Shown piece by piece: positions 257-23,504 of a stretch of 37,926 bases of DNA. The translations under genes were made by a program, and so were the position numbers. The notes under the pieces are model-generated. The model did no database searches. It was not told where the DNA came from and worked only from the letters and a program-made list of their open reading frames with translations. The DNA comes from Candidatus Magasanikbacteria bacterium CG10_big_fil_rev_8_21_14_0_10_36_32 (GTDB lineage: Bacteria; Patescibacteriota; Patescibacteriia; Magasanikbacterales; GWA2-37-8), in the NCBI GenBank assembly GCA_002778465.1, contig PFBV01000003.1, positions 375,053 to 412,978 on the forward strand, given 5' to 3'. Position 1 is the stretch's first letter; each line of letters opens with the position of its first letter.

Positions 257-294
257 TCCCGATGTAAAGTCGGGATCCCGACCTTGCGTCGGGA
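257..294 (+). repeat. 38-bp double-hairpin element, copy 1 (23S-5S spacer)
   Basis: Two adjacent 19-nt hairpins, each with a 7-bp stem and 5-nt loop. The first has stem TCCCGAT/GTCGGGA with loop GTAAA (one G-T wobble). The second has stem TCCCGAC/GTCGGGA with loop CTTGC. A second copy of the same length at 18438-18475 differs at three positions, two of which are a compensatory swap in the first stem and the third a wobble-for-pair change. This pattern indicates selection on RNA or single-strand DNA folding. REP/REPIN-like by architecture; no transposase is nearby. Confidence 0.8.
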
Positions 295-18367: not shown

Positions 18368-18396
18368 TTGACTTTTTCTCTGAAATATAGTACAAT
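18368..18396 (+). promoter_or_regulatory. Promoter of the tRNA-Glu/GIY-YIG locus
   Basis: TTGACT (18368-18373), 17-bp spacer, TACAAT (18391-18396). It lies 20 nt before the first base of the tRNA-Glu fragment, the spacing expected for the native tRNA-Glu promoter. The intact tRNA is now 332 nt away. Confidence 0.8.
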
Positions 18397-18415: not shown

Positions 18416-18482
18416 GGCCCCATCGTCTAATGGTTAGTGCCGATGTAAAATCGGCATCCCGACCTTGCGTCGGGAGACACCA
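18416..18482 (+). pseudogene. tRNA-Glu 5' fragment, interrupted by double hairpin
   Basis: The first 22 nt (18416-18437) are identical to the 5' end of the intact tRNA-Glu at 18728. After the 38-bp double hairpin, GACACCA (18476-18482) continues the match exactly where it broke off. The fragment therefore covers 29 nt of tRNA-Glu (acceptor 5' strand, D-arm, start of the anticodon stem), split cleanly by an insertion in the D-arm. It cannot fold as a tRNA. Confidence 0.85.
18438..18475 (+). repeat. 38-bp double-hairpin element, copy 2 (inside tRNA-Glu fragment)
   Basis: First hairpin TGCCGAT/ATCGGCA with loop GTAAA; second TCCCGAC/GTCGGGA with loop CTTGC. The second half is identical to the copy at 257-294. 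In the first half, G2-C18 here is C2-G18 there, and an A-T pair here is a G-T wobble there, which keeps the stem intact. Removing the 38 bp restores the tRNA sequence without gain or loss, so the insertion made no target duplication that remains visible. Confidence 0.85.
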
Positions 18483-18490
18483 TATTAAAT

Positions 18491-18742
18491 ATGTCTTTTA
18501 CTTACATCTTAAAAACTTCTTGTGACGATTATTATATAGGAAGTACAGATGATATAACACAAAGATTAAAGGCACACAATGCTGGAAAAGTAAAAAGCAC
18601 CAAAAGTAAATTGCCGATCAGATTAGTTTTTAAGGAATACTATCATACAAAATCAGAAGCCCAAAAGAAAGAATATAAAATAAAAAATTGGAAAAGTAAA
18701 AAAATGATAGAAAAATTAATAGAACTTGGCCCCATCGTCTAA
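18491..18742 (+). CDS. Stand-alone GIY-YIG endonuclease
   Basis: An 83-residue single-domain GIY-YIG nuclease of the UvrC-N/YhbQ type. The signature is present as TYILKTSCDDYYIGSTDD (residues 3-20), followed by RLKAHNAGKVKSTKSKLP, KEYYHTKSEAQKKEYKIK and KKMIEKLIEL. The catalytic Tyr, Arg, His and Glu positions all look present. The C-terminal residues GPIV and the stop codon TAA are read from the first bases of the intact tRNA-Glu gene, so the gene overlaps the tRNA by 15 nt. No good ribosome site is visible. It lies between a duplicated tRNA-Glu 5' end and the intact tRNA, suggesting homing-type insertion. Confidence 0.88.
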   Translation: MSFTYILKTSCDDYYIGSTDDITQRLKAHNAGKVKSTKSKLPIRLVFKEYYHTKSEAQKKEYKIKNWKSKKMIEKLIELGPIV

Positions 18743-18799
18743 TGGTTAGGACACCACGCTTTCAATGTGGTAATACGGGTTCGATTCCCGTTGGGGCTA
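18728..18799 (+). tRNA. tRNA-Glu (anticodon TTC)
   Basis: Acceptor GGCCCCA/TGGGGCT (G-U first pair), D-arm GTCTAATGGTTAGGAC, anticodon loop CTTTCAA on a CCACG/TGTGG stem, T-arm CGGGTTCGATTCCCG. No CCA encoded. Its natural promoter is separated from it by the GIY-YIG unit. Confidence 0.95.
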
Positions 18800-18851
18800 C
18801 ACAATTGGACAGGTTCAAGTGACCGAGAGGGTTCTTGAACGTTTGGTCATC

Positions 18852-23303: not shown

Positions 23304-23335
23304 TCTTGGGTTAAAATGTAATTGACAATTTAAGG

Positions 23336-23504
23336 CCTAAACCTCGGCTTTTGCTGGGGCATGGTCAAAAAACTCAAAGAAGACACTGATCCCCACGATC
23401 AGCTATTCTTCTTTGAGTCATACTTGGAAACGAGTATGGGGCCGCAAGGCTCGGCTGGCGTGGGGTTTAGTGTTTGAATACCAACCTCACAGAGGTTGTT
23501 TTTT
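23336..23504 (+). ncRNA. Candidate pseudoknotted structured RNA with terminator
   Basis: Many consistent helices on the plus strand: a closing pair CTAAACC/GGTTTAG (23337-23343 with 23464-23470), a hairpin CCTCGGC/GCTGGGG with TTTT loop, a 12-bp stem ACTCAAAGAAGA/TCTTCTTTGAGT (23372-23383 with about 23406-23417), inside it CTGAT/ATCAG with loop CCCCACG, a stem CATACTTG/CGAGTATG capped by GAAA, and GCC-GCAA-GGC. The loop CCCCACG (23391-23397) can pair with CGTGGGG (23459-23465), a 7-bp pseudoknot. Two GNRA loops fix the strand. An intrinsic terminator CAACCTC/GAGGTTG plus T-run follows at 23482-23504. No known RNA family is recognised. Confidence 0.6.

Follow-up and report, generated by a model that had tools for sequence, protein, structure and literature searches.

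A 38-bp palindromic repeat of Patescibacteria interrupts a tRNA-Glu relic beside a minimal GIY-YIG nuclease gene

The 38-bp double hairpin described here is a short palindromic mobile repeat of Patescibacteria. It is present twice in the window, i.e., the whole 37,926-nt stretch of contig PFBV01000003.1 of Candidatus Magasanikbacteria bacterium CG10_big_fil_rev_8_21_14_0_10_36_32 that was analysed. One copy, in the spacer between 23S and 5S rRNA, is a solitary insertion. The other lies in what the original prediction called a tRNA fragment, which turns out to be the 5' relic in a cassette with a GIY-YIG nuclease gene, a more informative reading that the prediction had missed. The cassette arrangement recurs at many tRNA isotypes, and the palindrome starts where the relic departs from the tRNA. 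We put at about even the chance that Slx1-type GIY-YIG nuclease cassettes directed at RNA genes accompany or mediate the spread of palindromic mobile repeats; the anatomy of these cassettes is well supported, and their mechanism is what we infer from sequence. The repeated arrangement at some 30 tRNA genes of related bacteria suggests how short palindromes spread.

The two copies were predicted to have equal length and to form two 7-bp stems with 5-nt loops, and both their positions and their form were verified. Positions 257-294 read TCCCGATGTAAAGTCGGGA followed by TCCCGACCTTGCGTCGGGA, positions 18438-18475 read TGCCGATGTAAAATCGGCA followed by TCCCGACCTTGCGTCGGGA, and each half of either 38-mer folds into a hairpin with 7 bp in the stem and 5 nt in the loop. 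As had been stated, the copies differ at three positions, through a compensated swap (C2-G18 to G2-C18) and the exchange of T7.G13 for T7-A13, and the fold is kept. The stems also covary across species: over 18 distinct sequences, 95.6% of the paired cells were standard pairs and 22 cells had changed on both sides, with a covariation score that was unmatched by 500 shuffles but is inflated by the relatedness of the sequences. When as many as 3 mismatches were allowed, the 19-nt unit was matched 3 times in the window and not once in any of 100 shuffles. The right hairpin, when reverse-complemented, matches the left one at all but 3 positions, so the 38-bp unit is an inverted dimer of one 19-nt hairpin. 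For the copy in the rRNA spacer, one long hairpin is a slightly better fold (-25.5 kcal/mol). This solitary element (257..294, + strand), located by pattern and model search, is bounded by Rfam matches to the 23S end at about 230 and to 5S at 333-439, in agreement with the predicted site. The element was absent from the readable 23S-5S spacers of other genomes of the family, and the spacers of G005 and G004 contain other GC-rich double hairpins.

Genome copy counts were derived from pattern searches and a covariance model built from five copies. In the host genome (879,704 bases, 97% complete), 16 matches were found at E<0.01, and 16 of 56 relatives gave between 1 and 23, with the highest number in G016. 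Since most dimers were matched on both strands, matches outnumber copies, and the ~880-kb genome holds at least six dimers. The proposal of a dispersed family is thereby borne out, with further copies in the genome and in relatives; the outcome named beforehand as refuting it, a lack of both, did not occur. The 38-bp pattern was found only in Patescibacteria: when 84,980 species genomes were scanned for the exact pattern, the 18 loci that came up lay in records named as Patescibacteria groups, apart from one record that bears just the name 'bacterium'. Viral contigs scanned for the hairpin pattern contained none. For 10 of the 18 pattern loci, a tRNA gene is no more than 300 bp away, compared with 4.4% of the surrounding sequence; this upholds the predicted RNA-gene bias, yet some copies sit in protein genes. 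The queA copy is an in-frame 13-codon insert with the sequence FPTQGRDSDFTSE; no such insert was present at that point in 22 aligned relatives (some of which have other inserts there) or in Thermotoga QueA. The ileS copy occupies a variable loop of 22 aa, versus 13-16 in most relatives. Copies of relatives are also found in or at dnaK-like, radA-like and ligA-like frames, named by sequence reading. In L042 and L049, nested versions carry a second palindrome, CCTGCCTGCCGG..CCGGCAGGCAGG, inside the loop. Single-hairpin matches beside T-runs (L005, L006, L044-L055) are terminator-like and were not counted as members; neither was the RNase P copy (L043/L154), because only one hairpin fits, at the P12 position. 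In Buchananbacteria 39_17 (L170, L176, L177, L182), the double hairpin is found within a longer repeated palindromic unit that starts with ccgccacaataa and ends with aaggcggga.

The cassette of the window occupies 18416-18800 on the + strand, in the order tRNA-Glu nt 1-22, 38-bp element, tRNA nt 23-29, GIY-YIG ORF and intact tRNA-Glu. Comparison with the intact tRNA delimits a 29-nt relic of the tRNA-Glu 5' end, split by the hairpins into 22 and 7 nt: part A (18416..18437), identical to nt 1-22 of the intact gene; the double hairpin (18438..18475), which breaks the relic between tRNA nt 22 and 23; and part b (18476..18482; nt 23-29, GACACCA). No target duplication was seen at the break. The ORF (18491..18742) encodes an 83-aa nuclease with a minimal Slx1-lineage/UPF0213-like domain, and its last codons and TAA stop are encoded by the first 15 nt of the intact tRNA-Glu(TTC) at 18728..18800, the uninterrupted reference for the relic. 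The conserved tRNA gene is predicted to remain functional behind the ORF. Upstream of the relic, a pattern match to a sigma-70-like promoter (TTGACT-17-TACAAT; 18368..18396, + strand; about one expected by chance in the region) is probably the original tRNA-Glu promoter. With respect to a group I/II intron core, Rfam reported no intron family in the window. The same site, GGTTAG|GAC, carries homologous hairpins in other genomes, with a GIY-YIG ORF in L168, L175 and L180 and without one in L172.

The recurrence of this anatomy was assessed in a survey set drawn from the family's GIY-YIG loci and from relatives of the window protein across the phylum. Of 113 unique GIY-YIG ORFs, 41 were labelled as tRNA-associated, and the cassettes involve tRNAs for Glu, Ser, Lys, Val, Asp, Gln, Ala, Cys, Leu, Pro, Trp, Phe, Arg and Asn. 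Relics run from tRNA nt 1, and nearly all that were checked are interrupted by a GC-rich palindrome, which may be single, double or nested. In an automatic break test, a hairpin started no more than 3 nt from the break of the relic in 28 of 31 loci, versus 10% of random positions; the result was 25 of 27 when the four loci found via the hairpin search itself were left out. The intact tRNA at the same offset was also positive in 12 of 31, because tRNAs contain stems. Two of the misses, L010 and L180, do have a palindrome a few nucleotides further on or after a coordinate offset, and the third, L257, is truly without a palindrome at the relic break and also without continuation b. The continuation was taken from the locus read-out and the break test, as automatic insert alignment under-called short continuations. 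A second tRNA cassette of the host genome is L010 (G000:C2:48096-51308), in which a tRNA-Ser relic with a 20-bp palindrome is followed by a GIY-YIG ORF and the intact tRNA-Ser. Other RNA genes are involved as well. Just upstream of an intact 5S gene in L292 (G005:C36), a 5S rRNA 5' relic, a double hairpin and the continuation occur with no nuclease ORF, and in L224 (G007:C1:357100-359145) a GIY-YIG ORF lies in the loop of a long hairpin within the RNase P RNA gene. Relic-palindrome duplications that lack the ORF (L172, L192, L253 and the 5S copy in L292) indicate that the ORF is not needed in cis. The break position varies (D-arm, anticodon arm or loop, T-loop), which counts against the cassette reading, and in several Asp and Pro relics a ~17-nt hairpin replaces the anticodon arm. 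The tRNA-Asp relics of L135, L228 and L231 have a double hairpin in the T-loop, and L135 and L231 also have the 17-nt hairpin replacing the anticodon arm. In L011 (G000:C2:15679-18879), an inverted repeat, ACCCCGTTAGAGA, flanks the GIY-YIG ORF, and L222 is arranged similarly.

The window protein consists of a minimal catalytic GIY-YIG domain whose nearest structure is the UPF0213 protein 1zg2. UPF0213 is a bacterial member of the Slx1 lineage (PMC1564403), and eukaryotic Slx1, a structure-specific nuclease, has branched DNA as its substrate (PMC1564403, PMC9071465). Considering this lineage and activity, the protein may be a nuclease that acts on tRNA genes and/or palindromes. No relative of it was confirmed in viral contigs. 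We propose that the small Slx1-type nuclease would cut a tRNA gene at or near the A|b junction, and that repair of the break would copy the cassette (palindrome-b-ORF-A) into the cut, whereby a whole tRNA would be restored behind the ORF. The palindrome would keep the left-over copy of the target broken and so prevent recutting, and/or may be the end on which the nuclease acts. Since A and b still adjoin within the intact tRNA, self-protection requires an extra assumption, for example dependence on the upstream leader. Solitary copies (rRNA spacer, queA, ileS) would be non-autonomous palindromes that were left or inserted elsewhere; those in coding genes have no GIY-YIG gene nearby, which counts against the cassette reading.

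A second class of GIY-YIG genes is flanked by palindromes on both sides. Inverted GTCAT..ATCC repeats (CGTC-type REPs) bracket 26 of 112 GIY-YIG ORFs (L124, L238, L243, L237, L268, L134 and others) but 0 of 356 control pairs. On a GIY-YIG tree of 113 proteins and 81 columns with many unresolved forks, the tRNA and REP labels required 1 change, versus 17-25 when shuffled, and 24 of the 26 REP-flanked rows fell within one starred clade of 29. Outside Patescibacteria, CGTC-type REPs flank GIY-YIG genes of Shinella, Azospirillum and Planktothrix and, by eye, Sphingobium; these eight hand-picked loci, from genomes possibly rich in such repeats, provide a lead only. In the plasmid search, the query was an ad hoc GIY-YIG sequence that did not come from the window. 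CGTC-type REPs have been described without a dedicated transposase (PMC3733652). We tentatively suggest, at somewhat less than even odds, that Slx1-type GIY-YIG nucleases mobilise short palindromes, one branch doing so in Patescibacteria at the genes for tRNA, 5S rRNA and RNase P RNA, and another being the partner that has been missing for CGTC-type REPs of several phyla. Published descriptions of short bacterial palindromes, CGTC-type REPs included, give no dedicated mobilising enzyme (PMC3733652), and the way in which palindromes consistently accompany small GIY-YIG nucleases, both in tRNA relics and where inverted REPs flank the gene, points to a candidate that can be tested. The same association suggests what some minimal prokaryotic Slx1-like proteins may do, and it offers an explanation of why RNA genes and essential proteins of Patescibacteria contain palindromic inserts.

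It is also conceivable, if rather improbable, that the palindromes are independent repeats, mobilised by some trans-acting enzyme or by replication slippage, which gather where they do least harm, the tRNA relics beside nuclease genes being neutral landing pads. This reading would fit the solitary copies, which lie in spacers and in exposed loops of proteins (queA, ileS), as well as the palindromes nested in the loops of others (L042, L049) and the relic-palindrome duplications without the ORF. However, neutral landing does not readily account for the fact that nearly every relic is broken, with the palindrome starting where the relic departs from the tRNA, when only ~6-10% of random positions in the same loci have a palindrome, nor for homologous hairpins at the same site in several genomes.

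An RNA-level device appears unlikely. Here, the hairpin would block pairing between the 5' half of the relic and the 3' half of the tRNA, or would repress translation of the nuclease. With the probable tRNA promoter upstream of the relic, the relic, ORF and tRNA would be co-transcribed, the hairpin ends 15 nt ahead of the ATG, the stems covary, and hairpins are known to regulate translation of homing endonucleases in T4 (PMC2988022). The promoter match, however, is near chance expectation, and palindromes are also seen in duplications that lack the ORF, at solitary sites, and on both sides of the REP-flanked nucleases. Finally, that these are ordinary transcription terminators or rRNA-spacer processing stems is highly improbable, since, although several single-hairpin genome matches lie beside T-runs, the double hairpins have no T-runs, are found in a tRNA relic as well as inside the reading frames of queA and ileS, and do not occur in the 23S-5S spacer of relatives.

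The reading of palindromes spreading with nuclease cassettes was compared with known systems. Like REPINs, the element is an inverted dimer of a short hairpin, dispersed and without evident target duplication, and this layout is the part of the predicted REPIN-like character that stands. Membership in the RAYT/REPIN system does not: the RAYT partner is a Y1 tyrosine transposase, whereas the gene associated with our element is a GIY-YIG nuclease; PF01797 had 0 matches in the ~97% complete genome, while positive controls matched; and no GTAG tag was present beside the stem of the copies, whose 5' flank is not constant. With no Y1 transposase gene found and no GTAG/CGTC tag, the element is not a RAYT/REPIN member as tested. 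CGTC-type REPs, including Rickettsia RPE-4/RPE-6 and Neisseria dRS3 (PMC3733652), share 5-nt-loop hairpins, head-to-head dimers, intragenic copies and the lack of a known dedicated transposase. Nevertheless, the unpaired CGTC/TGTC tag, AT-started stem and CCA tail described for them (PMC3733652) were not found in the window element, and true CGTC-type REPs occur in relatives, flanking a separate GIY-YIG clade. GC clusters and double-hairpin elements of yeast mitochondria are likewise GC-rich hairpins of ~40 bp that merge and nest and have a proposed endonuclease link, but they are mitochondrial, are flanked by short direct repeats and show no partial tRNA duplication (PMC4478555).

Free-standing GIY-YIG homing endonucleases such as T4 SegB also lie in a tRNA region, but SegB cuts a tRNA intergenic region in intronless homing (PMC2988022), whereas in the window a minimal Slx1-type domain is encoded between a palindrome-broken tRNA 5' relic and an intact tRNA. 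Two traits of a homing endonuclease cassette are present here, a catalytic GIY-YIG domain and a site in a conserved gene whose intact copy is predicted from sequence. The same bacteria are the hosts of the rRNA-gene insertions known from CPR genomes, where GIY-YIG ORFs occur in non-intron insertions of RNA genes; most of these insertions are at the top or base of rRNA stem-loops, and the main text of that study does not mention tRNA genes, palindromes or relics (PMC11270868). A search of literature available without subscription found no paper that connects GIY-YIG genes with REPs or with palindrome-broken tRNA relics. Elsewhere in the window, Rfam reported a LOOT RNA (RF03000) at 23334-23452 with 90.8 bits.
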